Assembly (NCBI GenBank): GCA_947259975.1 | Contig: CAMYOD010000003.1 | Coordinates: 56,433-120,432 of the forward strand | DNA: 64,000 bases | Source: an uncultured Gammaproteobacteria bacterium | GTDB taxonomy: Bacteria > Pseudomonadota > Gammaproteobacteria > HyVt-429 | Direction: 5' to 3' | Shown here: in pieces, positions 6,271 to 52,170 of the stretch | How the letters are laid out: each line of letters opens with the position of its first letter | Numbering within the stretch: the stretch's first letter is position 1 | The notes under the pieces: generated by a model | Seen by the model: only the letters and a program-made list of their open reading frames with translations | Told to the model about the DNA's origin: nothing | The model's database searches: none | Program-made: the position numbers and the translations under genes

Positions 6271-6948
6271 ATGGAAGATACGAACCTCAAACTTCAGGTC
6301 GGCGACGCCCTGCAACTGCAATTCGTGGATGACGACACGAAGGATCGCGTGTACGTGAAGGTCATCGGTTATCTGGACGGCCAAAGCGTGGTGGTAACCA
6401 ACCCCCGTATCAACGGCAATATTATGCTCATCCGCGAAGGCCAGGGTTTCATTGTGCGGCTGCTGTCCGGCAACCGGGTATTGGGTTTCAATTCCACGGT
6501 GATGCGCACCTGCGCCCGCCCCTACGCCTACCTCCACCTCAGCTATCCGAACGATACCCAGGAGATGGTGGTGCGTCGCGCACAGCGCGCCACCGTCGAC
6601 ATCATCGTGTCGGTACAGAACAAGCATCCGGAGCGCGCGACCGATAAAGCCGTTTCCGCCGTCATCCGCGACATGAGCACGGCGGGCTGTCTGATTACCT
6701 CACGCAGTCTCTTGGGTGAAGAGGATGACATCCTCGATCTGTCGGCACGGGTCAACGTCGGCAACGTGGAGGATTATTTGCGGCTGCCGGCGTCGATCAA
6801 GAACGTGCGCCATGAGCCGGATGCCACGAACCATAATGGCGACCCCTACCGCTACGGTATCGAGTTTCAGTTGGTCGAAGGGCACGACAGCCTGATGTTG
6901 CATGGCTTCGTCTACGAGCAGATCGCCAAGAATCTGCTCGATACATAA
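6271..6948 (+). CDS. PilZ-domain, YcgR-like flagellar brake protein
   Basis: N-terminal YcgR-type segment and PilZ motifs RRAQRATVDI and DMSTAGCLI. Confidence 0.8.
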   Translation: MEDTNLKLQVGDALQLQFVDDDTKDRVYVKVIGYLDGQSVVVTNPRINGNIMLIREGQGFIVRLLSGNRVLGFNSTVMRTCARPYAYLHLSYPNDTQEMVVRRAQRATVDIIVSVQNKHPERATDKAVSAVIRDMSTAGCLITSRSLLGEEDDILDLSARVNVGNVEDYLRLPASIKNVRHEPDATNHNGDPYRYGIEFQLVEGHDSLMLHGFVYEQIAKNLLDT

Positions 6949-7368
6949 ATTAAAGTGGCGAGGGACGAGGAGCCAGCAAAAATGCGTGCCGGAGCGCCGT
7001 GCTCGGGGCAAATAGACTGCAGTACATTACTTCGTGGCCGGTGCCTGCTCGTACCTAGCCGAGCTTCAAGATGCTAGCCGCAGGATACAAGTAAGAGCCC
7101 TTGACTCTTGGCGCCCGTCATTCCGGACACGCGCAGCGTGATCCACAATCCGGTGTGCGTTCGTGGGTCTCTGGGCTCCGGGTTCGGTACTGCGTACCGC
7201 GCCGGAATGAGGTAGAGAGAAACTTGTGCGCCGAATTTTGCACCTTGTTCCTCCTTCCCCGCGCCTGGTTCCTCTACCGTGATCCCTTGTTTTAGTTTGG
7301 CTCCAAGCGCATTTTTCTCCATACTATGAAAATCATCAGCATGAATCGCAACCTGGGAGATCGAAGCG

Positions 7369-7713
7369 ATGACCGATTGCCTGTTTTGCAAAATGGTGGC
7401 CGGCGACATCAAACCGGATACGGTGTACGAAAACGATGAGGTACTCGCCTTTCGCGATATCAATCCGCAGACGCCGGTACACGTTTTGGTGATCCCCAAG
7501 CGTCATATCGCGACGACGAACGATCTAGAAGCGGGCGACGCGGAGTTGATTGGCAAGCTGTATCTCGTTGCCAAGCAGGTGGCAGAACAGGAAGGAATCG
7601 CGGAGCCGGGCTACCGAACGCTGATCAATTGCAATCGGGACGGGGGCCAGGCGGTTTACCATATCCACCTGCATCTCATGGGCGGGCGGCCCCTGGGCTG
7701 GCCGCCAGGCTAA
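7369..7713 (+). CDS. hinT: HIT-family protein (HinT-like)
   Basis: TDCLFCKMVAGDI...PVHVLVIPKRHI...VYHIHLHLMGGRPLGWPPG (HxHxH motif). Confidence 0.95.
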   Translation: MTDCLFCKMVAGDIKPDTVYENDEVLAFRDINPQTPVHVLVIPKRHIATTNDLEAGDAELIGKLYLVAKQVAEQEGIAEPGYRTLINCNRDGGQAVYHIHLHLMGGRPLGWPPG

Positions 7714-7725
7714 ACGTCCAAGGCG

Positions 7726-8091
7726 CTACGCGGTCACAACGGGGATGTTATTGCACGCGCCGGGATAGTCGTAATGCTTGCGGTCTTTGCGGCGGCGGCC
7801 GACCCGCTGGATGATCACGCCCTTGACCTCGAACGGCGGGATGAGCTCCACCGCAGGATGCTCCGGATTCAGGTGGCGCAGCCAGGTACGGCCCTGCTCC
7901 TGCCAGTACTGCCCGAACCGCACCTCGCCCCCATAGTCGACCACGACGAAGGCCTCGTGACACGCCGCGAAACCCGGGTCGATAATCACGATGTTGCCGT
8001 CCTGGAACTCCGGCGCCATGCTGTCGCCGATGACACGCAGGGCAAACGGTTCGGTGATATCGGCGGTGCAACCGCCACCAGCTTCACTCAT
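7726..8091 (-). CDS. Stand-alone S24/LexA-like peptidase domain protein
   Basis: FALRVIGDSMAPEFQDGNIVIIDPG matches the S24 Ser motif; no HTH segment in the ORF. Confidence 0.75.
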   Translation of the reverse strand: MSEAGGGCTADITEPFALRVIGDSMAPEFQDGNIVIIDPGFAACHEAFVVVDYGGEVRFGQYWQEQGRTWLRHLNPEHPAVELIPPFEVKGVIIQRVGRRRKDRKHYDYPGACNNIPVVTA

Positions 8092-8182
8092 TACAGGATC
8101 GCCTCACAAGAGAACGCGCATTATATCGCCCCGCCGGGGTTGGCCCAAACGTTTGTGACCCGGGAAAAACAGGGAACCAGGG

Positions 8183-8203
8183 CAAGGTACGAGTATCGAG
8201 GCA
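8183..8203. repeat. Short copy of the heptad family (CAAGGTA CGAGTAT CGAGGCA)
   Basis: Three consecutive heptads read directly. Confidence 0.5.
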
Positions 8204-8405
8204 GCAGGCGGATGAGAGCGCGTTCTCGCCGCGAATGCGCATAAGGTCACTCTTCGTGGCTTGAGGCCTGATCGGCGTGCATTTCGAATTTCTTGCCGCA
8301 GGGATCTTTATTCACAAGCGCGCTGTCACTATATTACTTCGTTAATGCCCAATATCACGCACCACCGGGGCCCCAGGGCATCCATGGGCAAGAGTCGAAA
8401 ATGAA

Positions 8406-8861
8406 ATGAAGGCAATTAAGGATTTTTTCAGACAACATCTCGCGCGGGAGACGGCCGCCGAGACTCCCGAGCATCGGCTGCAACTCACCACTGCGGCGCT
8501 GTTGATCGAAATGGCGCGCGCCGATTTCGAGTTCAGCGAGGACGAGCGCGCAACGATCACGCACGCCGTGCAAACCACCTTCGAGTTGAGCTCTGCAGAA
8601 ACCGATGAACTGGTGCAGTTGGCAGAGGCGCAGGCACGGGATGCGACCTGCCTGCATGAATTCACGTCGCTTATCAATAAGGAGTATGACTACCCGGACA
8701 AACTGAAGATCATGGAGATGTTATGGCGCGTCGCACACACCGACGCCGTAGTCGAAAGTCACGAGCGTCATCTCATGCGCAAGATCGCGAGCCTGCTCTA
8801 CATCTCGAACAAGGACTACGTGGCCACCCAACGACGCGCCAGCAATAACCTTCTGGCCTAG
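8406..8861 (+). CDS. TerB-family (tellurite resistance-like) protein
   Basis: ALLIEMARADFEFSEDERATI...KLKIMEMLWRVAHTDAVVESHERHLMRKIASLLYIS. Confidence 0.85.
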   Translation: MKAIKDFFRQHLARETAAETPEHRLQLTTAALLIEMARADFEFSEDERATITHAVQTTFELSSAETDELVQLAEAQARDATCLHEFTSLINKEYDYPDKLKIMEMLWRVAHTDAVVESHERHLMRKIASLLYISNKDYVATQRRASNNLLA

Positions 8862-8864
8862 GGC

Positions 8865-9233
8865 TCAGGCCGCGTATTCGTCGTCCTCCATGATAGCGAA
8901 GCCATTACCTTCGGTGTCTTTGCAGTTCACCAGATAGCCAACCCCGGGAATGGCTTGTTTTGGTGCGAGGATAGTGCCGCCGGCAGCCACGACCCGCGCA
9001 GCATATTCGTCCACGGAAGGCACATTGATGATGCTGGTAATCCCAGCATCTGGATTCGAGCGCACCCCCATGCCGCCATCGATACCCGGCTCTTCCTCCA
9101 CTCCGGTACGTATAAGCCAGTAGTCGAAGGGTCCATCCCATTTGCTGAACTGCCAATCGAATGCCTTAGTATAGAACTTCAGCGCGCGTTCGGGCTGATC
9201 GGCACTTATATCAAAATGAACAACACGCGGCAT
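8865..9233 (-). CDS. VOC-family (glyoxalase-like) protein
   Basis: VVHFDISADQPERALKFYTKAFDWQF...GMGVRSNPDAGITSIINV...NCKDTEGNGFAIMEDDE. Confidence 0.88.
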   Translation of the reverse strand: MPRVVHFDISADQPERALKFYTKAFDWQFSKWDGPFDYWLIRTGVEEEPGIDGGMGVRSNPDAGITSIINVPSVDEYAARVVAAGGTILAPKQAIPGVGYLVNCKDTEGNGFAIMEDDEYAA

Positions 9234-9496
9234 GACGCACCCCTGTCAAACAATGGAGTAGCGGCGAATTATAACCGCATGTCAGATCGGCCGAAATCAC
9301 CCTTATGCACATTTCCACATTGGCTCGTCGTGCGGACCTCAGGGGTCGACAGCCAGCGGTTACTTGCGGCATCATTGCGTGACACGAACACGAAACGTCA
9401 AACGCCTTTCACGAAGACGTGAACCCGGGATCAGAACCTTGAGCCGGCGCGACCCCGGGAAGATCATCCACCCAGAAGCAGACCATCTTCAAACAG

Positions 9497-11167
9497 TTGA
9501 ATACCTCATTTAATACCGCGTCATGGCACACGATTACCCGAGATTGGCCTCTGCTGGCGGCATTGTTTTTTCTATATGTGTTAGCGCATGGCGGCATGCT
9601 TCTCCTCGGCCAAGATATATTTTGGGACGATTGGTTTCTGGTTGACAAGCCGCCATCGGTCATCATTGAATATTTTTCGCAACTGGGGGCGCCCTATTTC
9701 GTTTACCTGCACGTATGGCTTCTCAAGCTGGGCCCACCGGCCTATCGCATTCTCACGTTCTTCCTGTTGTTCGGAGCAGGATTGTTCGTATGGGGGATAC
9801 TCAGCACAATCCGCCAGCTCGATGCCAAAGACCGCTTTCTATTTACGGCGCTATTCTTGTTGGCGCCGGTCTACGCGGCGCGCTCATACCTAATTTGCTT
9901 CCCCTACACCCTTGACTATACGCTTTTCTTCGCTGCCTGGTATCTTTGGGCGCGGAACACGTTGCGACCATCATACAGCCTGCATTTGATGGCGCTGGTA
10001 TTGTTCTTCATTTCATTCCAAACCCAATCTTTATTAGTATTTTTCGCCCTACCGGTCGCGCATATCTTTACGCTTCGGCAAGTTCCCAACCCATCTGGTG
10101 TCGCGTCGTTCTGCCTGCGAAATATCGATTTTTTGCTACTGCCCTTCGTTGCCTATATGTCGAAAGCGTTACTCTTTCCGGCGTACGGTTCGTCCTCGGG
10201 TTACAATCAATTGGCCGTATCGGAATACATTGCGTATTTCACTTCAGACATCAATTACGTTTCGCGCACGTTTATCAATTTTGCGCGCGACCTTCTTGTA
10301 ACTCCATCCTGGCTTCTATTATTCGCGGGGCTTTTCGCTTTATTTTTAGGAATATCGCTCACACGCCGTGCACACACAACCGTTGACACCGAAACAGGCG
10401 ATACACATCCTCGCCTTCAGGGCATGATATTTATCACCATTGGAATCGGCGCGATGTATCTGGCAATCGTGCCATATCTCATGGTGCGAAAGATTCCCGA
10501 TTTTGTTGAACCGTGGTCACGGCACCAACTTCTCATTCCCTTTGGTATGGCGATGAGCTCGTTTGGCATCGGCCGACTGCTGCCTGCCAAATTACGTCGC
10601 TTTTGGTTTGCAGGGCTTTTGGCGTTCTTTATCACAGCGAATATCGATGGCACCGTGGCATTTCATCGTGACGCAATCAAACAGGATGCGCTGATGCACG
10701 AATTCGCGGAATCGCCCGCAATACGCGCTGGTGACAATTTCTCTGTAATCGATTTTACGTGCGCGTATGACGCCCGCAACCGCCGGTATCGTGACTATGA
10801 GTATGTCGGAATGCTGCGGCGCGTATTTGCGGAGACAACACGCTATGCCGATTCCTGGCGCGCTCGCGGAATAAGTCGTTGGCAGAAAGACGTCGAAAGA
10901 CGAGTCAGCGATATACACCGCAAAGGATTTTACTTTCCCGGGCCGGTATCCGACCGACCTTCCTGTCAGTTGCGGATCAGTCCAGGCAAGACAGTGTTGT
11001 CCGGGCTGCCCCTGGCGCATCTCTTCTGGCAGAAAACGTTTGCGGCGCCAGAGGTGTATCAGGCCGCTCTTACAGACATCCTGAATGTTGAGTGCGTTCC
11101 ATTTACGGATGATCCGGATTTAGGAAACACGACCAAAACTGACTGCCCATCGTTTTGGGCGCGGTAA
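9497..11167 (+). CDS. Polytopic membrane protein, GT-C-like, unknown function (probable TTG start)
   Basis: About ten hydrophobic segments; early DDW motif (QDIFWDDWFLVDK); visibly lower GC than flanking genes. Confidence 0.6.
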   Translation: MNTSFNTASWHTITRDWPLLAALFFLYVLAHGGMLLLGQDIFWDDWFLVDKPPSVIIEYFSQLGAPYFVYLHVWLLKLGPPAYRILTFFLLFGAGLFVWGILSTIRQLDAKDRFLFTALFLLAPVYAARSYLICFPYTLDYTLFFAAWYLWARNTLRPSYSLHLMALVLFFISFQTQSLLVFFALPVAHIFTLRQVPNPSGVASFCLRNIDFLLLPFVAYMSKALLFPAYGSSSGYNQLAVSEYIAYFTSDINYVSRTFINFARDLLVTPSWLLLFAGLFALFLGISLTRRAHTTVDTETGDTHPRLQGMIFITIGIGAMYLAIVPYLMVRKIPDFVEPWSRHQLLIPFGMAMSSFGIGRLLPAKLRRFWFAGLLAFFITANIDGTVAFHRDAIKQDALMHEFAESPAIRAGDNFSVIDFTCAYDARNRRYRDYEYVGMLRRVFAETTRYADSWRARGISRWQKDVERRVSDIHRKGFYFPGPVSDRPSCQLRISPGKTVLSGLPLAHLFWQKTFAAPEVYQAALTDILNVECVPFTDDPDLGNTTKTDCPSFWAR

Positions 11168-17064: not shown

Positions 17065-17141
17065 GCCCCGGTAGCTCAGCTGGATAGAGCAGCCGCCTCC
17101 TAAGCGGCAGGTCGGACGTTCAAATCGTCTCCGGGGCACCA
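17065..17141 (+). tRNA. tRNA-Arg (CCT), CCA encoded
   Basis: GCCCCGG acceptor, anticodon loop CTCCTAA, T-loop GTTCAAATC, 3' GCCA/ACCA end. Confidence 0.93.
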
Positions 17142-17313
17142 TCTTTTCGCACCCGAATCGGCCGATGGGGCTGCTCGCCACCGACCCCAGGCTGGTGCAC
17201 GCAAGCGCCTCAGGCCCCTATATGGTGCAGACCGTCCCGCCCCATCCGCAAGGCGGAAAAATTTCTATTAGAAAATTCACGAACTTATCGTCATTCCGGT
17301 CGACGGACGGTTC

Positions 17314-17329
17314 TGGCACGCAAATTGTA
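17314..17329 (+). promoter_or_regulatory. Possible sigma54-type promoter (TGGCACG-CAAA-TTGTA), one mismatch in the -12 GC
   Basis: TGGCACGCAAATTGTA, about 40 nt upstream of the small ORF at 17371. Confidence 0.35.
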
Positions 17330-17370: not shown

Positions 17371-17532
17371 ATGCATACTGATATCAATTATTCCGGTTTT
17401 GCCGATCTCGTAACCCGGGCCACCGCTGACTACGGCCGCGAGGACACTTCCGCCGAACAAGTGGCCTGCGAGCATGCGGCGTGTCCCTGCGACAACCGGT
17501 GCATCGAACCGCCGTCAGCCGACAACACCTAG
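17371..17532 (+). CDS. 53-aa Cys-rich small protein of unknown function
   Basis: MHTDINYSGFADLVTRATADYGREDTSAEQVACEHAACPCDNRCIEPPSADNT*; AAGGAG ribosome binding site 5' of the ATG; not in the supplied ORF track because it is under 60 aa. Confidence 0.6.
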   Translation: MHTDINYSGFADLVTRATADYGREDTSAEQVACEHAACPCDNRCIEPPSADNT

Positions 17533-17541
17533 ACCGGTCTA

Positions 17542-19134
17542 TTGTTGAACATCTCGGGCGTACCCCGTAAACCCGTAATACTGATTATCCTCGACGGTTT
17601 CGGCACCAACCCCAGCAAGATCAACAATGGGGTGGCCGAAGCCGATACACCACGGCTGGATGCGTATTTCAGCCAGCATACACACACCCTGCTCGCCGCC
17701 TCCGGAACCGCGGTCGGCTTGCCGGATGGCCAGATGGGCAACTCCGAGGTCGGCCATCTGACCCTGGGTGCCGGCGCCGTTATTCGCCAGGACCTGGTGC
17801 GCATCGATGCGGCTATCGACAACGGCGAATTCTTCACCAATCCGGCCTTACTCGACGCCGCCCATCAGGCGGTGGAAAAAAACCGCCCCCTGCATCTCAT
17901 TGGCCTGGTGTCCGACGGCGGCGTGCACAGCCATACCCGCCACCTGTTTGCCCTGGTGCAGCTGTGTAAACAGCAAGGCATCAAGCCCCTGCTGCACCTG
18001 ATCACCGACGGCCGCGATACGCCGCCTGCTTCCGCCCTGAATTACCTCGGCGACGTCGAGGCACATCTGCACGAGGCCGGTGGCGGCATCGCCACCATCA
18101 TGGGACGTTATTTCGCCATGGACCGGGACAAACGCTGGGACCGCACGGAACTGGCCTGGCGCGCGCTGGTGCTTGGTAAGGGCCAGCCGGCGGTGTCTGC
18201 GGAGACCGCGATCCGTAGCGCATATGCCGCCGGCGACACCGATGAATTTATTCGCCCCATGCATCTCCCCTTGGCGCAAACCATCGAACACGATGATGCA
18301 GTCATTTTTTTCAACTTTCGTAAAGACCGACCCCGGCAGCTGGTGGCGGCGCTGGGTGCGAACGACTTCACCGGCTTCGACCGGGGCGACTCACCTTTGG
18401 CGCGAGTCACTTGCATGATGCCCTATGACCGCCGCCTGAACATGCCGGCTGCGTTCGAACCGGAGCGTCCGGCGACGACGCTCGGTCGGGTCGTAAGTGC
18501 GCTGGGATTGGCGCAGTTTCACTGCGCCGAAACGGAGAAGTACGCCCATGTCACCTACTTTTTCAATGGCGGCCGCACGACCCCCTACTCCGGTGAGACC
18601 CAGCTGCTGGTGCCCTCACCACGGGTAGCGACCTATGACCTCAAACCCAGCATGAGTGCCCGCGAAGTTGCGGATGCAACCATCGGCGCAATTAACAAGG
18701 GTCGTCACGCATTTATGGTGATCAATTTCGCCAACGGCGACATGGTGGGGCACACGGCAATGCGCGATGCAGTGATTACCGCGGTAGAGACCCTGGACGA
18801 GGAAGTCGGACGAGTACTGGATGCCGCGACCACCGCCGGTTATTCGGTTCTGCTGACCGCCGATCACGGCAATTGCGAAGAACTGATCGATCCGCTCACC
18901 GGCGCACCCCATACCCAGCACACCACCTACCCGGTACCGTTGCTGCTGATTGATGAAGAAAACTGGCAGCTGTCCAGTACCGGTGGACTCGCCAATATCG
19001 CCCCCACCGCGTTACAACTTATGGGCATCGAGGCACCCACAGCCATGTCCGCAGGCTCACTGCTATTGCGACGCTTGCCGCGGCCGGACCAGCGGACCGA
19101 CTATCGCGCGACGCGCCTGCGCGGCGCGGCCTGA
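17542..19134 (+). CDS. gpmI: 2,3-bisphosphoglycerate-independent phosphoglycerate mutase
   Basis: ILDGFGTNPSKINNGVAEADTPRLD, GQMGNSEVGHLTLGAG, LTADHGNCEELIDP. Confidence 0.96.
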   Translation: MLNISGVPRKPVILIILDGFGTNPSKINNGVAEADTPRLDAYFSQHTHTLLAASGTAVGLPDGQMGNSEVGHLTLGAGAVIRQDLVRIDAAIDNGEFFTNPALLDAAHQAVEKNRPLHLIGLVSDGGVHSHTRHLFALVQLCKQQGIKPLLHLITDGRDTPPASALNYLGDVEAHLHEAGGGIATIMGRYFAMDRDKRWDRTELAWRALVLGKGQPAVSAETAIRSAYAAGDTDEFIRPMHLPLAQTIEHDDAVIFFNFRKDRPRQLVAALGANDFTGFDRGDSPLARVTCMMPYDRRLNMPAAFEPERPATTLGRVVSALGLAQFHCAETEKYAHVTYFFNGGRTTPYSGETQLLVPSPRVATYDLKPSMSAREVADATIGAINKGRHAFMVINFANGDMVGHTAMRDAVITAVETLDEEVGRVLDAATTAGYSVLLTADHGNCEELIDPLTGAPHTQHTTYPVPLLLIDEENWQLSSTGGLANIAPTALQLMGIEAPTAMSAGSLLLRRLPRPDQRTDYRATRLRGAA

Positions 19135-20379
19135 TCACTGTCCGTCCGATTCCGACTGCGCTTGCAGTTCGATGAGTTCTTCTTCGGCACCCGCGGCGTG
19201 CGTCAGCTCGGCGACATTTTCTTTTGCAAAGAACCCATCGAAGTCGCCGAAACGCTGGACATACTCGATAATCAGCGACGAATGCTCGGACGCACTCGAA
19301 AAAATCTGCTTCAGCCCCTGCTCCTTGGATCCGATAACGTCGAGGAGAAAATCCCGCCCCTGCTCCGCGATCTGCGCGACCACGTATTCGATGTTCTCTT
19401 GGCCATGACGCCCGCCATCACGAACCGCAAGCGCAATGTGATGCAGACGCGGTCCATAGTTGCGCACAAACGTCTCGGTCGGAGACGGCAGATTCACCAA
19501 ATGATTGACGAACCAGGGGGTATTGTTCGCGGTGAAAACCTTGGCCGGGCTGCGCATCTCGTCGGCTTGCCGGACGCTCTTCGTGACATTGGTCGATGAG
19601 TTTTGGTCCTTGATGTCATATGAGCCCCAGTAGAAATAACTCGACAGCGATAGCCACTCGAGAATCGCTACTTCGCGGTTCTGGCAATAGACCCGCGTGG
19701 CGAGATGGTCGATGGGCAGAATGAGATCGTCGATCTCGAGCTGTTTCTGTAGTTCCTTCGCCGCCAGGTAGATCTCTTGTACGTCATTGCGGATATTGCT
19801 GAGACCGAGCGCGTAAATCCGCGGGTCGCTCACCGCGCGCTCCATATACGCGACGATATTATGCGTATACGGGGACGGCTTGCTGATCGCCAGATTGCCG
19901 GGAAGCTCGAGCTTGCGGGTCTGGTCCTGGGAAAAGAAACGGAATCCCCGCGTCTTCTGACACTCGACCACACCGTGCAGATCCTCGACGCGGAGTATTT
20001 CGCCCATATAGCGGCTGTTTGGCTTGCTCGCCCCTATGGGGTAGACCTCGTTGAGACTGCGGAAGATGCCGCGAGTGCTTGCATCCTTGACTTCCCGCAC
20101 GATGAAGTCGGGCGCGTTCATATCGACACGCAGGATATGCGTCCAATGACTTTCGCTCTCCAAGGTGACCAGGTAGTGATACGGGGTCATGAGACACAGC
20201 TCACCAACATAGCGAATGGAATGCCCCGGATCGACCGTGATCATGATCGCGTCGATGTCGTGGATCTTCTCGGTCAGGCCGGATGCATCGCGTTCCTGCA
20301 GTAGTCGAGACAGGTAGTCCTCGAAGAAGGCGGAATTTTGCTTGTCGCCGTGGCGCTGAAATTCAAGCGAATTAATCAT
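19135..20379 (-). CDS. VOC-superfamily protein with HPPD-like C-terminal part, unknown function
   Basis: GPRLHHIALAVRDGGRHGQENIEYVVAQIAEQGRDFL...GSKEQGLKQIFSSASEHSSLIIEYVQRFGDFDGFFAKENVAELTHA resembles 4-hydroxyphenylpyruvate dioxygenase C-termini. Start placed at MINSLEFQ. Confidence 0.55.
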   Translation of the reverse strand: MINSLEFQRHGDKQNSAFFEDYLSRLLQERDASGLTEKIHDIDAIMITVDPGHSIRYVGELCLMTPYHYLVTLESESHWTHILRVDMNAPDFIVREVKDASTRGIFRSLNEVYPIGASKPNSRYMGEILRVEDLHGVVECQKTRGFRFFSQDQTRKLELPGNLAISKPSPYTHNIVAYMERAVSDPRIYALGLSNIRNDVQEIYLAAKELQKQLEIDDLILPIDHLATRVYCQNREVAILEWLSLSSYFYWGSYDIKDQNSSTNVTKSVRQADEMRSPAKVFTANNTPWFVNHLVNLPSPTETFVRNYGPRLHHIALAVRDGGRHGQENIEYVVAQIAEQGRDFLLDVIGSKEQGLKQIFSSASEHSSLIIEYVQRFGDFDGFFAKENVAELTHAAGAEEELIELQAQSESDGQ

Positions 20380-20426
20380 TGGGGTCAACCTTTGTCGCTG
20401 GTCAAAAGAATCCTGCGATCGTCTCA

Positions 20427-20441
20427 GCAACAATCGCGCCA
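20427..20441 (-). promoter_or_regulatory. sigma54-type promoter for the VOC/HPPD-like gene (TGGCGC-N5-TTGC)
   Basis: Reverse strand reads TGGCGCGATTGTTGC, invariant GG and GC at correct spacing, about 48 nt upstream of the start codon. Confidence 0.5.
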
Positions 20442-20657
20442 TTCGTGGGCAAGAGATGCGACAGGGGAATTTCCGACGTTTTCCCAAAGGGTTAGCCCAT
20501 CGGAGAGGCATGCCAGTCCTGCGCGCAAGCCCCGGACTGTGCGATAACAGTGCAGTTTCTGCGGCGACAATAGAGATATGGGCCAAGATGGTGCAGACCC
20601 GGATCGCGCCAAGTGACAAACCAGCGGATTTACAACGGCTTGCCCGTTTCCGGTGCG

Positions 20658-20672
20658 TGGCACAGATATTGC
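20658..20672 (+). promoter_or_regulatory. sigma54-type promoter for the 1149-aa gene (TGGCAC-N5-TTGC)
   Basis: TGGCACAGATATTGC, exact consensus, 43 nt upstream of the ATG at 20715. Confidence 0.7.
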
Positions 20673-20714
20673 GATGGAGAGGTCACTGCGGGCACCCGCA
20701 ACAGGAACCCTACT

Positions 20715-23700
20715 ATGAGCGACCTGGCAACATCAGACATCGATACGTCCCCCGGTACGGCACTCCAGCGACGTCACCAGCACATCAATCTAAAGCTCGC
20801 GGCACTCGGCCAGCCGACCTGCCACCTCGACGGCGACAACAGCTACCTGCAGGTCGCCGACGGGCTGCTGAAACACCACGCCCGGCAGAAGCGGCTTCTG
20901 TCGGACTATCGCTGCCCCGCGGATCAACGTATCCAGGATTTTCTCAATGCCTACATGGCCGAGCATGGGCTGGATCTGAACATCGAGCTGCCGGGCGCAA
21001 CCTTCATTCTGGATGAGCCCGGACTGGCGCGGGAGTTATCGCTACCCTTGAATGGCACCCATTTCCACTCGGATCTGCTCGATTCCTATCGACTCCTGCA
21101 AGGCGTGCTGAATAACCCGAAAAGCGACCGGCGTACGACCAAGGGCGTATTTCATATCGTCGCCGGTGGATTGCCGGTACCCGCGGACAAGCGCGAGACG
21201 CCGGTGGCGGTCTTTGCCGCATTGTTGATGAAAGCCCTCGATCCGCCACCGGAGTTGCTGCGGCTGCCGGCGACGAGCGAGGAACCGGAGCCGGCGGAAC
21301 TGTGGGTGTCGCTGTTGTTGCGCCCGACGGTTCGCCCGGAAGTCCCCGGAGTCCTGCCGACCAAGAGCCTCGAGGTGCGTTTCTTCGCACCCGGTAGTCT
21401 GGTTGCCAACCTGGATTTCGTGGAATCTATCTTTGGTAACGGCGGTGACCCGTTTCTGCCGGACAACGACGCCGCCCTGGACATCGAGCACTGGACCGGA
21501 CAAAGCGGCTGCGTGATTCTTGCGCCGCACCTGGTGGGCTGTCGCAAGAAGGAGCTGGGGCTGCCCCACTACGACAATGCCACGGAACGCCAACGCCGCG
21601 ACGGCATGTGCTGGCAGGACGAAGACGAGCTATACAACGACGGCCAGGCATTCAAGATTGTCTGTCGCGATTGGCGTGGCGTCGTCGTCACGTTGATTGC
21701 AGACAACTACTTCGGCTACAGCAAAAAGGAAATCAAATCCCAGATCAGCTTCTCCGCCAATCTATACGGTGGCTCCGAGGAGGAACATGCCGGCGGTGCT
21801 CTGGCATATCCGTGTGTCAATCTGGGCGAAACCTATATCCCGCGCCCCGCCGATATGCATGGACACTACAGCTTCGCCGACCTCGCCCGGCGTCTGGCGG
21901 GCAGTATCCGCGTTGTGGATGACGGGTATGCCGTCGATAACCAATATTCGAATATCATCTATGTACCCGAAAATGCGCATATCAATATTCAAAATCTGCG
22001 CGTCGGCTGGCACGATCAATCGGGCGAGCACCAAATCAAGCTGCTTGCCGAACACGTCTATGTGTATCCCAGCGGTTTCCGCGTGCACATGGAGCAGCAT
22101 CCCCATGCGCCCAGTTGGCGTCTGATCGGCACCGTCGGCGAAGGCACATTTTGCCACAAGCCCAGCACCGTCTCGGGCGGCGGCAAGTCGGAGATCTCCA
22201 AGTCAATTTCCGGCGCGGTGATCTCCGGGCCGATCTACGTGGGTGATTTCGAGCCGGATCTGGCTCAGGTGCGGGCAATATTTGAGCGCGATTACTCGGA
22301 TCGCTTCCGAAACCCGGAATCGCAGCCACCGGACACGCGCAGCCTCCTCAGCGCACAACGCAGTCTGGGGTCGGTCATCAAACTGCTAACACCATCCGCC
22401 AGCGAATATTCGGATACCTACAATGAGTGGCTGCAGGGTATTCCACAACATATTCTCGCCCTGGTCTTCATGATTAAGCGCTTTTACCGGCAGGAATGGG
22501 GTCGCGATTGGCAAAAGCACTTCTCGGTCGATACGGTCAATGGGAACCCGGGGCACGAACTGAAATTCGATGGGCGCAAACTCATGGCGAGTTATCTGCG
22601 CGTGGGTTTCGATGATGACGGCAGTTGGCGTCTGTTCAAGTTGCGCCAGGATTATGTGCCGGCGGCCAAGGTACAGATGGAAGACGATATAACCGCTTCC
22701 ACCGTGGTTCCGATATCCTATCTCGCGGGCCTGAATCCTGAATACAATAACCCAAGCGTCAAACTCGTGGTCAACTGCGAGCGGCACCTGTTTCAACGCC
22801 CGGATGACGCCATTCACCGTGGTACCGACCTGCAGACTGAAAACGATTTGGCCGGCAGGGATAATTTTATTTCGAATTTCGAGCCCATGGATAAAGAGGA
22901 TGCGCGCGCGCTCATGGAAGATGTCGTGCACTTCCAGCAGTTCAGTCCGCCGATGCAGCGCCTGGTAAAGGACGCGGCGCAAATGGATGATGAACTCTAT
23001 TTCGTGTCGTCCGCGCATCCGCGTATTGTGGATGGCAAGCCCAGCCTTAATGTCCGTTACCTGCAAATTCGGCCGGATCTTGCAGATCCACTTCCGCGCC
23101 ATCTGGCGGAAACCTGTACCCGTCTCGCGCGCGGATTGGAATCGGATCAACCGGTACATTTTCCGGTCAACGCCGTGCTCGCCGGACGCCGCAACAATCC
23201 ACCGGGCCCGGGCATCAGATCATTGGCCGTCTACAACCCAATCCATTACCAGGAGCTTCCGGAACTCTTTATGGAGTTGATCAGCAGCCTGACTGGCAAG
23301 TCGCCTTCGACCACCGGTGCGGGTTCCGAAGGCGCGTTGACCAAGGGTCCCTTCAACTCCCTATGCGCCACCGCCGATCTCAATACCGCGCTGGTTTCGT
23401 TCATCCTGTGCGGGCACGATGGTTTTACCACTCCCGCGGGACACATCGGGCCCAAGCGTCGTATAGATCACGACATCAGTATGTTGATACCGGAGATCTG
23501 GTGCCGTTTACCGGTTGCGGTTCGTGATCCTGAATACATGATTGCGCATGGATACCTGGAAAAGCTCGAGGATTTTGAATACGAGGGTCGGCCGGTTCTG
23601 GCGAGCCGACTGGGCTACCGAATCACGAAGCGTTTCGTGCGCGATCAGTTCGGCAAGATCTTCGATACGCCGGCGGCGGTTTTCGATGACGCCATGTTAT

Positions 23701-24164
23701 GTCCGGAAACCCAGGATCAGGAATCTTATGTCGATGGAATCCACAACATATGCGAGGCTCAGCAACGGGTGGCGCTGCACTACTTCTCCGACGGCTCGGT
23801 GGAAGACGCCTGCCCTCCGCTGCAGGCGCTGCTGCACATAATGGCGCACGGCCGCTACCTGAACAAGACCGTGGATGATCCGGAAATCCGTAACATGTTT
23901 ACGCGCGACTATTTGCTGCAGAGCGATTGGTACCAGGAACGGCTCGTAATCAAGCAACAATGGGATGAACAGCTCTGGCGTCAGCACCGGGAGCACCTGC
24001 GCGTCCAGAAGAACAATCTCAACGACGACGAAACCAGCGGCCACGCCGATCTCGCGGCACGCATCGCGGAAGCCGACCGCATGATCGGTGTGGTTTCGAG
24101 CGCGGCCTATCTGGAACGCCTTGAGGGGACATTGGGGGCGGACTGGGTGCACCGCGGCACTTGA
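20715..24164 (+). CDS. Conserved ~1149-aa protein, candidate PPi-type phosphoenolpyruvate carboxykinase homologue
   Basis: ORF 20613..24164 trimmed to MSDLATSDIDTSPG, downstream of the sigma54-type promoter. Contains FFAPGSLVANLDFVESIFGNGGDPFLPDNDAALDIEHWTGQSGCVILAPHL. Identity is from memory of the large PPi-PEPCK-like family and length, not a search. Confidence 0.45.
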   Translation: MSDLATSDIDTSPGTALQRRHQHINLKLAALGQPTCHLDGDNSYLQVADGLLKHHARQKRLLSDYRCPADQRIQDFLNAYMAEHGLDLNIELPGATFILDEPGLARELSLPLNGTHFHSDLLDSYRLLQGVLNNPKSDRRTTKGVFHIVAGGLPVPADKRETPVAVFAALLMKALDPPPELLRLPATSEEPEPAELWVSLLLRPTVRPEVPGVLPTKSLEVRFFAPGSLVANLDFVESIFGNGGDPFLPDNDAALDIEHWTGQSGCVILAPHLVGCRKKELGLPHYDNATERQRRDGMCWQDEDELYNDGQAFKIVCRDWRGVVVTLIADNYFGYSKKEIKSQISFSANLYGGSEEEHAGGALAYPCVNLGETYIPRPADMHGHYSFADLARRLAGSIRVVDDGYAVDNQYSNIIYVPENAHINIQNLRVGWHDQSGEHQIKLLAEHVYVYPSGFRVHMEQHPHAPSWRLIGTVGEGTFCHKPSTVSGGGKSEISKSISGAVISGPIYVGDFEPDLAQVRAIFERDYSDRFRNPESQPPDTRSLLSAQRSLGSVIKLLTPSASEYSDTYNEWLQGIPQHILALVFMIKRFYRQEWGRDWQKHFSVDTVNGNPGHELKFDGRKLMASYLRVGFDDDGSWRLFKLRQDYVPAAKVQMEDDITASTVVPISYLAGLNPEYNNPSVKLVVNCERHLFQRPDDAIHRGTDLQTENDLAGRDNFISNFEPMDKEDARALMEDVVHFQQFSPPMQRLVKDAAQMDDELYFVSSAHPRIVDGKPSLNVRYLQIRPDLADPLPRHLAETCTRLARGLESDQPVHFPVNAVLAGRRNNPPGPGIRSLAVYNPIHYQELPELFMELISSLTGKSPSTTGAGSEGALTKGPFNSLCATADLNTALVSFILCGHDGFTTPAGHIGPKRRIDHDISMLIPEIWCRLPVAVRDPEYMIAHGYLEKLEDFEYEGRPVLASRLGYRITKRFVRDQFGKIFDTPAAVFDDAMLCPETQDQESYVDGIHNICEAQQRVALHYFSDGSVEDACPPLQALLHIMAHGRYLNKTVDDPEIRNMFTRDYLLQSDWYQERLVIKQQWDEQLWRQHREHLRVQKNNLNDDETSGHADLAARIAEADRMIGVVSSAAYLERLEGTLGADWVHRGT

Positions 24165-49529: not shown

Positions 49530-51965
49530 TCAACTGACTTTCTTTAGTGGCACGAACTCGTGTTCGTCCACGCCTTCGGCACGCTCCTTCCAGGGATCAA
49601 CCTGAGCGAATTTCTGCGAATGTAGAAACCGCTCCGCCAGGGTCTTGCGCGCGTCCACATCCTCGACGATGCGTTCCTTTACATAGGTAAGACCGACCCG
49701 CTCAATCCACGGGGCGGTACGCTCCAGGTAATGGGCCTCTTCGCGGTACAACTGCATGAATGCCGCGGTATATTCCAGCACCTCCTCTTCGCTGCTCACA
49801 TTGCACAGCAGGTCCGTGGCTCGCACCTTCACGCCACCGTTGCCACCGACATGAATTTCATAACCGGAATCTACACACACCACACCCAGGTCCTTGATCG
49901 TGGCCTCGGCACAGTTACGCGGGCAGCCGGAAGCAGCCATCTTGAACTTGTGCGGTGTCCAGGACCCCCAGGTCATTTTTTCCAGTTCAATGCCCAGGTG
50001 GGTGGAATCCTGGGTGCCAAAGCGGCACCATTCCTTGCCCACACAGGTCTTTACGGTACGCAGGGCCTTGCCATAGGCATGACCGGAGACCATGCCGGCG
50101 TCACTGAGTCTCTTCCAGATGCGGGGCAGTTCTTCCTTCTTCAGGCCATACAAAGCAATACGTTGGCCACCGGTGACATGCACGGTCTTGACCTTGTATT
50201 CCTCGGCCACATCGGCGATGGCACGTAACTCTTTTGGGGAGGTACCACCACCCCACATGCGGGGAATCACCGAGTAGGTACCATCATTTTGGATATTGGC
50301 GTGGGCGCGCTCATTGATGAAGCGGGACTGGTAATCGTCCAGACCTTCCTGGGGCCAGGCACAGACCAGATAGTAATTCAGTGCCGGCCGGCACTTGCTA
50401 CAGCCATCCGGGGTTTTCCATTCCAGGAAGTCCATCACGGCACGGATAGATTTCAGTTCCTGATCCTTGATAGTAACGCGCACCTCGTCATGGGAACGCT
50501 CGGTGCAACCGCACATGGGTTTGAGATGGGGTGCCACCGAGTAATCACCGCCCACGGTGTGGGCCAGCAGGCTTTCCACCAGGCCGGTGCAGGAGCCGCA
50601 GGAACTGGAGGCCTTGGTATGCGCGCGCACGTCTTCCAGGGTAAACAGTTTCTTGTCGCCGATGGCCTGCACGATGTCACCCTTGCATACCCCGTTACAG
50701 CCACAGATCTCCGCGCTATCAGCCATCTGCGCCACCCGGTTATCGTCACCATGACCGGAATCGCCCAGATGGGCCTGGCCAAACAAAATGTTGTTACGGA
50801 AATCGCTGATATCGGTTTCATCGCGCATGAGGTCAAAATACCAGGCGCCGTCAATGGTATCGCCGTACATAACCGCACCCTTGATGCGGTTCTCTTGCAC
50901 CACCAGCTTGCGATAGACACCTTGCGCCGCGTCCTGAAACACCAGCTCCTCGGTGTTTTCATCGCCGGTGAAATCGCCCGCGGAAAACAGATCGATGCCC
51001 GTGACCTTGAGTTTGGTCGAGGTCATGGAGCCTTCATAGCGGCCGATGCCGATCTTGGCCAGGTGATTCGCACAGACCTTGCCCATCTCGAACAGGGGCG
51101 CCACCAGGCCGTAGGCGATACCGCGGTGCTGGACACACTCGCCCACGGCATAGATGCGCGGATCAAAAGTCTGCAGGGTGTCATTCACCACCACGCCACG
51201 CTCACAATGAATACCGGATTTTTTCGCCAACTCGGTGTTAGGACGGATACCCACCGCCATCACTACCAAGTCCGCATAGATCTCAGTGCCATCCTTGAAG
51301 CGCACCTTCTCGACCCGGGTGTCGCCGATGATCGCCTCGGTCTGCGCCTGCATAAGAAAATGCAGACCCCGCTCTTCGAGGGAACGCTTGAGCATGGCGG
51401 CGGCCGGTTTATCCAGCTGGCGCTCCATGAGCGAATCCATAAGGTGAACTACGGTCACACTCATGCCCTGCTGCATGAGGCCGTTGGCTGCTTCCAGGCC
51501 GAGAAGTCCACCGCCGATCACGACCGCATGCTTGTGTTCTTTCGATGCCGCGAGCATCTGATCCACATCATGTATGTCGCGGAAACTGATGACCCCTTTC
51601 AGGTCATTACCGGGCACGGGGATCATGAATGGATTGGAACCGGTCGCCAGCAATAGCCGGTCATAGGATTGCTCGCTACCATCGGCCGCGATCACCTTAC
51701 GATTCACCCGATCGATGTCGACGATCTCCTGCCCCTTCTTCAGGGTAATACCGTTGTCCACATACCATTGCTCGTCGTTGAGCATGATGTCATCGATCGT
51801 CTTTTCCCCGGCCAGCACCGGCGAAAGCATGATGCGGTTATAGTTGCCATAGGGCTCGGCACCGAACACCGTGATGTCATAGGCGTTGGGGGCGAGTTTG
51901 AGCAACTCCTCCAGGGTGCGAACACCGGCCATGCCGTTGCCCACCATCACCAACTTTTCCTTCAT
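49530..51965 (-). CDS. nirB: Nitrite reductase (NADH) large subunit
   Basis: MVGNGMAGVRTLEELL, GCNGVCKGDIVQAI, FKMAASGCPRNCAEATIKDLGVVCV siroheme/4Fe-4S motif. Confidence 0.96.
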   Translation of the reverse strand: MKEKLVMVGNGMAGVRTLEELLKLAPNAYDITVFGAEPYGNYNRIMLSPVLAGEKTIDDIMLNDEQWYVDNGITLKKGQEIVDIDRVNRKVIAADGSEQSYDRLLLATGSNPFMIPVPGNDLKGVISFRDIHDVDQMLAASKEHKHAVVIGGGLLGLEAANGLMQQGMSVTVVHLMDSLMERQLDKPAAAMLKRSLEERGLHFLMQAQTEAIIGDTRVEKVRFKDGTEIYADLVVMAVGIRPNTELAKKSGIHCERGVVVNDTLQTFDPRIYAVGECVQHRGIAYGLVAPLFEMGKVCANHLAKIGIGRYEGSMTSTKLKVTGIDLFSAGDFTGDENTEELVFQDAAQGVYRKLVVQENRIKGAVMYGDTIDGAWYFDLMRDETDISDFRNNILFGQAHLGDSGHGDDNRVAQMADSAEICGCNGVCKGDIVQAIGDKKLFTLEDVRAHTKASSSCGSCTGLVESLLAHTVGGDYSVAPHLKPMCGCTERSHDEVRVTIKDQELKSIRAVMDFLEWKTPDGCSKCRPALNYYLVCAWPQEGLDDYQSRFINERAHANIQNDGTYSVIPRMWGGGTSPKELRAIADVAEEYKVKTVHVTGGQRIALYGLKKEELPRIWKRLSDAGMVSGHAYGKALRTVKTCVGKEWCRFGTQDSTHLGIELEKMTWGSWTPHKFKMAASGCPRNCAEATIKDLGVVCVDSGYEIHVGGNGGVKVRATDLLCNVSSEEEVLEYTAAFMQLYREEAHYLERTAPWIERVGLTYVKERIVEDVDARKTLAERFLHSQKFAQVDPWKERAEGVDEHEFVPLKKVS

Positions 51966-52003
51966 TTAAGGTCTCCGGGACGGCTCATTAGCCCGCATAA
52001 ATG

Positions 52004-52018
52004 GCAAAACCTGTGCCA
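52004..52018 (-). promoter_or_regulatory. sigma54-type promoter of the nirB operon (TGGCAC-N5-TTGC)
   Basis: Reverse strand reads TGGCACAGGTTTTGC, 39 nt upstream of the nirB ATG. Confidence 0.7.
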
Positions 52019-52094
52019 GCTGCCCCTGTTCACGGGCGTTTTTGTAATTGTCTGAAAATAAGCGTGTTTTTTGCCGGGTCACGAAATTTCCGCG

Positions 52095-52170
52095 GCACCG
52101 AAGACAGCTGTCGCCCCAATTCGGTGCAGCATCCTGTACTCCTGCACCGGGCATGAACAGCCTTCGGTGC
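52095..52170. promoter_or_regulatory. Cluster of four GCACC/GGTGC half-sites upstream of the nirB sigma54 promoter
   Basis: GCACCGAAG (52095-52103), TTCGGTGCAG (52120-52129), CTGCACCG (52142-52149), CTTCGGTGC (52162-52170). Confidence 0.55.

Follow-up and report, generated by a model that had tools for sequence, protein, structure and literature searches.

What joins two neighbouring genes that point away from each other, each behind a sigma54-type promoter element, and which activator would serve them both? This question is raised by a locus within a stretch of 64,000 nucleotides (hereafter the window) from an uncultured gammaproteobacterium, where a gene for a protein of 414 amino acids (aa) and one for a protein of 1149 aa diverge from a 335-bp intergenic region. 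The first-pass annotation of this DNA had read them as a co-regulated two-gene system of unknown role. Herein, we argue that the divergent genes probably form an NtrC-activated, sigma54-dependent unit induced by nitrogen limitation, through which the phosphoenolpyruvate (PEP)–oxaloacetate node would be coupled to nitrogen supply. A link between this pair and a nitrogen-starvation regulator appears not to have been described before, as far as the open-access literature goes.

The divergent genes and the adjoining gpmI unit

The genes and the tRNA considered here are the following:

17065-17141: tRNA-Arg(CCT)
17371-17532, forward strand: small Cys-rich open reading frame (ORF) of 53 aa, first in the gpmI unit, with no NCBIfam match
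17542-19134, forward strand: gpmI, 2,3-bisphosphoglycerate-independent phosphoglycerate mutase, a second, divergent copy (TIGR01307, 635 bits)
19135-20379, reverse strand: gene of the VOC superfamily for a protein resembling 4-hydroxyphenylpyruvate dioxygenase (HPPD-like), 414 aa (ATG at 20379)
20715-24164, forward strand: gene for a PPi-dependent phosphoenolpyruvate carboxykinase (PPi-PEPCK), 1149 aa (ATG at 20715)

Judged by its sequence, the product of the large gene is a full-length PPi-dependent PEP carboxykinase. In a phmmer search its residues 10-1142 matched two solved structures, PDB 8e1u (a PPi-dependent PEPCK) and 6k31 (AiPEPCK), with 1186 and 1183 bits. It had looked unknown because none of the Pfam and NCBIfam models match it. 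PPi-dependent PEPCK, also known as PEP carboxytransphosphorylase (EC 4.1.1.38), is an enzyme of about 1130 aa with a patchy distribution, unrelated to the ATP- and GTP-dependent PEPCKs. It catalyzes the reversible reaction PEP + Pi + CO2 <-> oxaloacetate + PPi. As neither a PEP carboxylase nor an ATP-PEPCK or GTP-PEPCK was found in the source genome (92.8% complete), the PPi-PEPCK may be its only such enzyme. Our search of the open-access literature found no report on nitrogen control, or any other regulation, of PPi-PEPCK.

The smaller protein belongs to a conserved family of ~410 aa that has an HPPD-like fold and no established name, with 64-82% identity among its members and a presence in 30 of 369 genomes sampled from the same class. 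An AlphaFold2 model of the family is of moderate quality (pLDDT 66, pTM 0.73). Its 50 best Foldseek matches in the PDB consist solely of HPPD, hydroxymandelate synthase, and an HPPD fusion, with E-values from 2.7e-7 and TM-scores of ~0.4-0.54 for a model of this pLDDT (66). Across an alignment of 25 orthologues, the candidate iron ligands H225, H313/H314, and E372 are invariant. They fall in the motifs IDH, HHIA, and EYVQR, which we take to resemble the iron-binding motifs of HPPD. Sequence searches gave another picture: the best Pfam match was Glyoxalase_4 (E 0.11), nothing in Pfam or NCBIfam (the HPPD models included) scored above cut-off, and an HMM of the family had no detectable match to any solved structure among the PDB sequences. 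Since no sequence model recognises the protein, we keep the name HPPD-like rather than HPPD and regard it as a candidate Fe(II)-type oxygenase of the HPPD fold.

Convergent with the HPPD-like gene, and with a stop codon that abuts its own, lies gpmI. This copy is only 46-47% identical to the other copy in the genome (contig C67) and to the copies of three genomes of the same family. The block from 17.2 to 24.2 kb, which begins beside the tRNA gene, may be a horizontally gained unit.

Promoter elements and NtrC-like sites

NtrC binds the consensus TGCACYAWWWTRGTGCA. We scored candidate sites by their matches to this consensus (out of 17), with a threshold of 14/17 that was chosen after the site had been seen. 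The NtrC-like sites of the first six lines below are unstranded, and the two -24/-12 elements of the divergent pair were read directly from the sequence:

17213-17229: NtrC-like site GGCCCCTATATGGTGCA (14/17), ahead of the unit formed by the small ORF and gpmI
17314-17328, forward strand: sigma54-like element TGGCACGCAAATTGT, weaker because its -12 has GT instead of GC
20427-20441, reverse strand: -24/-12 element TGGCGCGATTGTTGC of the HPPD-like gene (TGGCGC-N5-TTGC; TGGCGCGATTGTTGCT from 20441)
20538-20554: second NtrC-like site TGTGCGATAACAGTGCA (13/17), overlapping a palindrome at 20536-20551
20579-20595: NtrC-like enhancer site TGGGCCAAGATGGTGCA (14/17; shuffle p 0.007)
20658-20672, forward strand: -24/-12 element TGGCACAGATATTGC of the PPi-PEPCK gene (TGGCAC-N5-TTGC; TGGCACAGATATTGCG from 20658)
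49530-52128 (upstream sites included), reverse strand: nirB, nitrite reductase large subunit (TIGR02374, 959 bits)
at 52018: sigma54 element TGGCACAGGTTTTGCC of nirB
52112-52128: NtrC-like site TGCACCGAATTGGGGCG of nirB

The two -24/-12 elements of the divergent pair lie exactly where the first-pass annotation had put them, and its estimate of about 40-50 nt to the starts translates into 42 nt before the ATG at 20715 and 47 nt before that at 20379. Both have the sigma54 core spacing GG-N10-GC, with the TGGC and TGC cores fixed. Within the 335-bp intergenic region, a core on either strand at once arose in 0.28% of dinucleotide shuffles when defined as TGGC-N8-TGC, and in 0.13% when defined as TGGC-N7-[TC]TGC. 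Genome-wide, TGGCAC-N5-TTGCW occurs nine times versus zero times for the reversed pattern; the wrong-spacing count, for which TGGC-N8-TTGCW (one base too long) was used, came to 41 matches. RpoN is encoded in the source genome.

Two NtrC-like sites stand between these elements, with a joint shuffle probability of 0.001; permuted consensus sequences, scored over five regions as a control, reached this level in 3 of 199 cases. The palindrome ACTGT-gcgata-ACAGT, earlier suggested as the site of a shared enhancer-binding protein, is present, but two bases away from the reported 20534-20549. A shared enhancer is indeed probable, but the palindrome is better read as a part of the second NtrC-like site. 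As an independent operator it was rejected: its overlap with an NtrC-like site that has a perfect half-site makes a separate regulator unneeded. In agreement with the earlier reading, no regulator gene adjoins the divergent pair.

Only three sites reach at least 14/17 in these 64 kb, each of them 30-200 nt ahead of a TGGCAC-N5-TTG element (P 1.2e-6), the zones at this distance from the four such elements making up 1.07% of the window. At a threshold of 13/17, 4 of the 13 sites in the window are near an element (P 9e-6). The three sites belong to the HPPD-like/PEPCK intergenic region, to the gpmI unit (17213/17314), and to nirB, which is well suited as an internal control for the NtrC/sigma54 pattern. 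The site of the gpmI unit is a direct repeat of the stretch 20583-20599. The fourth element of the window (34982-34969, reverse strand) has no NtrC-like site upstream. The source genome also encodes glnA-ntrB-ntrC, with glnA first, and its NtrC scores 718 bits versus a cut-off of 559 bits (TIGR01818). This glnA is preceded by NtrC-like sites of 15/17 and 14/17 and a sigma54 element, TGGCACGCTTCGTGCA. The notion of a two-gene system needs widening: the pair would still be co-regulated, but it does not stand alone, as gpmI to its left repeats this promoter arrangement in weaker form.

Conservation and gene neighbourhoods

Orthologues of the two genes differ markedly in their upstream regions. 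TGGC-N8-TGC is found at most 150 nt from the start in 9 of 29 HPPD-like orthologues, whereas shuffled sequences gave a mean of 0.3 and never more than 3; on the same 29 upstream regions, other spacings gave 0-2 matches and the reverse strand gave 1. Two of these nine share one genus, so the matches are not fully independent. We consider this conservation the strongest external support for the predicted sigma54 elements. The strict core is absent from the other 20 orthologues, several of which (e.g., L165 and L167) lie downstream in a same-strand cluster. Among 112 regions upstream of PPi-PEPCK orthologues (some species counted twice), a single one has a sigma54 element, and a conserved PEPCK promoter was rejected on this count. 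The two ratios point to an old promoter on the HPPD-like side and to one peculiar to this lineage on the PEPCK side; since PEPCK orthologues are generally devoid of the element, control on the PEPCK side may be local. The proposed co-regulation keeps its pair of sigma54-type promoters and a probable shared enhancer, but only the HPPD-like side is conserved; judged by conservation in orthologous intergenic regions, the yardstick set by the first-pass annotation, half of its claim stands.

The exact divergent HPPD-like/PEPCK pair was found nowhere else. Homologous divergent pairs in other genomes carry CP-ATPgrasp, not PEPCK, opposite the HPPD-like gene, and in three loci (L162, L164, and L169) a sigma54 element is present on each side, which is the layout of the window with another gene opposite the HPPD-like one. 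Among 22 inspected loci of the HPPD-like gene, about half also hold genes for CP-ATPgrasp, alpha-E, transglutaminase, DUF2126, and Anbu (identities assigned by Pfam). Anbu is a proteasome relative for which we know of no substrate or activity. The role is thus not entirely unknown and the scope is wider than two genes, as the large gene encodes a PPi-PEPCK and the HPPD-like gene often sits with the Anbu cluster elsewhere.

The source genome has its own Anbu cluster on another contig (L213, G000:C9:44000-63900, at 6660-11116), comprising a zinc-ribbon peptidase, Anbu (confirmed against the PDB), CP-ATPgrasp, and alpha-E. Its Anbu/ATP-grasp region contains a 14/17 NtrC-like site and no recognisable sigma54 element. 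In Pseudomonas putida, the Anbu operon PP_2685-2688 is upregulated under nitrogen limitation, which was assigned to NtrB/NtrC (PMC7801951, PMC5666114, PMC6376114). In Burkholderia cenocepacia, a transglutaminase-domain cluster depends on sigma54 and NtrC (PMC5491218).

The PEPCK gene is linked to the HPPD-like gene and to members of this cluster in varied arrangements. HPPD-like and PEPCK genes occur together in 10 of the 369 genomes where 2.5 are expected (p 3.8e-5, with genomes treated as unrelated). In a Thiotrichales MAG (L068), the HPPD-like stop and the PEPCK start are only 1-2 bases apart, with one sigma54 element ahead, and this abutting operon is independent evidence that the two genes belong together. 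Genome G248 has them in the same order with a longer spacer. PEPCK follows alpha-E after 26 nt in L061, lies beside transglutaminase/ATP-grasp genes in L062, and closes a one-strand run in genome G046 (CP-ATPgrasp, alpha-E, GltB, glucan phosphorylase, PEPCK) that has a sigma54 element ahead of CP-ATPgrasp. This run stands opposite the HPPD-like gene in L169 (G046:C7) and in L164 and L224 (G186:C13). G046 carries two HPPD-like copies (G046:C16:42711-43949 and G046:C7:52794-54020), one of them on the same strand as Anbu and downstream of it, the other with its own sigma54 element.

A putative nitrogen-responsive unit, its alternatives, and known systems

In the mechanism that we favour, phosphorylated NtrC would bind the candidate sites at 20538-20554 and 20579-20595 under nitrogen limitation. 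Measured from the expected PEPCK start, the nearer site lies ~96 nt and the farther one ~137 nt upstream; for the start of the HPPD-like gene, these distances are ~130 and ~171 nt. Bound NtrC would then activate RpoN-polymerase at both promoters, in both directions. The PPi-PEPCK would act at the PEP-oxaloacetate node and, probably together with gpmI, supply oxaloacetate carbon skeletons for nitrogen assimilation. With its similar upstream arrangement (weaker at -12), gpmI would extend the unit to 3-phosphoglycerate. Toward oxaloacetate is the direction of flux that we favour.

It is quite possible that the enzyme runs the other way, toward PEP, serving gluconeogenesis or PPi recycling, given the reversibility of its reaction and a genome in which no further PEPCK turned up. 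This would alter the flux step only and is compatible with NtrC/sigma54 control. Against it, no PEP carboxylase was found either, and the company of PEPCK elsewhere, glutamate synthase and glucan phosphorylase, suggests carbon flow toward PEP and oxaloacetate.

As the HPPD-like family is often found alongside the Anbu cluster, a step in the Anbu pathway is suggested for it. We tentatively propose that the family could be an unrecognised oxygenase of an NtrC/sigma54-controlled Anbu/ATP-grasp/alpha-E/transglutaminase pathway, with PPi-PEPCK as its recruited carbon-supply partner.

Would NtrC be the activator at all? The genome encodes enhancer-binding proteins of many types (FleQ, FleR/FlbD, GlrR, AtoC-like, PrsR, NtrC, NorR-like, and NtrX), and one further such protein adjoins a PilS-type kinase. 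The promoters could thus be real while a protein such as NtrX, PrsR, or the AtoC-like orphan encoded on contig C37 acts on them in response to a signal other than nitrogen, the more so because several sigma54-bearing HPPD-like upstream regions (L168, L175, and L179) have no good NtrC-like site. We deem this unlikely, as the sites in the window fit the pattern of glnA and nirB, and the linked cluster is under NtrC control in two published species (PMC7801951, PMC5491218).

Less likely still, only the HPPD-like promoter would be functional, the PEPCK element being a chance match and PEPCK a housekeeping gene with an ordinary promoter. The scarcity of the element among PEPCK orthologues speaks for this, and steady expression might be needed in a genome where the searches for PEP carboxylase, ATP-PEPCK, and GTP-PEPCK came up empty. 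Yet the PEPCK element has a full TGGCAC at -24 and a 14/17 NtrC-like site ~70 nt upstream, and sigma54 elements also precede the HPPD-like-PEPCK operon of L068 and the PEPCK-ending run of G046. That the two genes were merely co-transferred horizontally next to tRNA-Arg, with no common function, would fit their not being found in three genomes of the same family, the tRNA, and the divergent second gpmI, but is improbable because their linkage recurs in varied arrangements in several lineages (L068, G248, G046, G186, and L061), PEPCK also adjoins transglutaminase/ATP-grasp genes in L062, and no convincing attachment-site repeats were seen around the tRNA-flanked block.

If NtrC does control the divergent pair, its significance would be twofold. 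A pyrophosphate-based switch between PEP and oxaloacetate would be tied to nitrogen starvation, which places PPi-PEPCK under a nitrogen regulator here, whereas in relatives it lies beside enzymes of nitrogen metabolism. Moreover, an HPPD-like oxygenase and a carbon-supply enzyme as partners of Anbu would provide a new, testable handle on the function of the latter.

How does the pair compare with known systems? The HPPD-like family has its best fold matches in HPPD and hydroxymandelate synthase, and its invariant His, His, and Glu may correspond to their iron ligands, but by sequence it was recognised neither by HPPD models nor through any solved structure. The large gene resembles known PPi-PEPCK (EC 4.1.1.38) in its full-length match to two solved enzymes and differs by its own sigma54-type promoter and its pairing with the HPPD-like gene. 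Like the presumed NtrC targets glnA and nirB, the pair combines a -24/-12 element with NtrC-like sites at most 200 nt upstream; unlike them, its target is an enzyme of the PEP-oxaloacetate node, and the enhancer region is common to two divergent promoters. As for the Anbu/CP-ATP-grasp/alpha-E/transglutaminase cluster, the HPPD-like family is its frequent neighbour in Gammaproteobacteria (L162-L169, L172, and L061), whereas in the source genome that cluster resides off-contig, and PPi-PEPCK takes its place opposite the HPPD-like gene.
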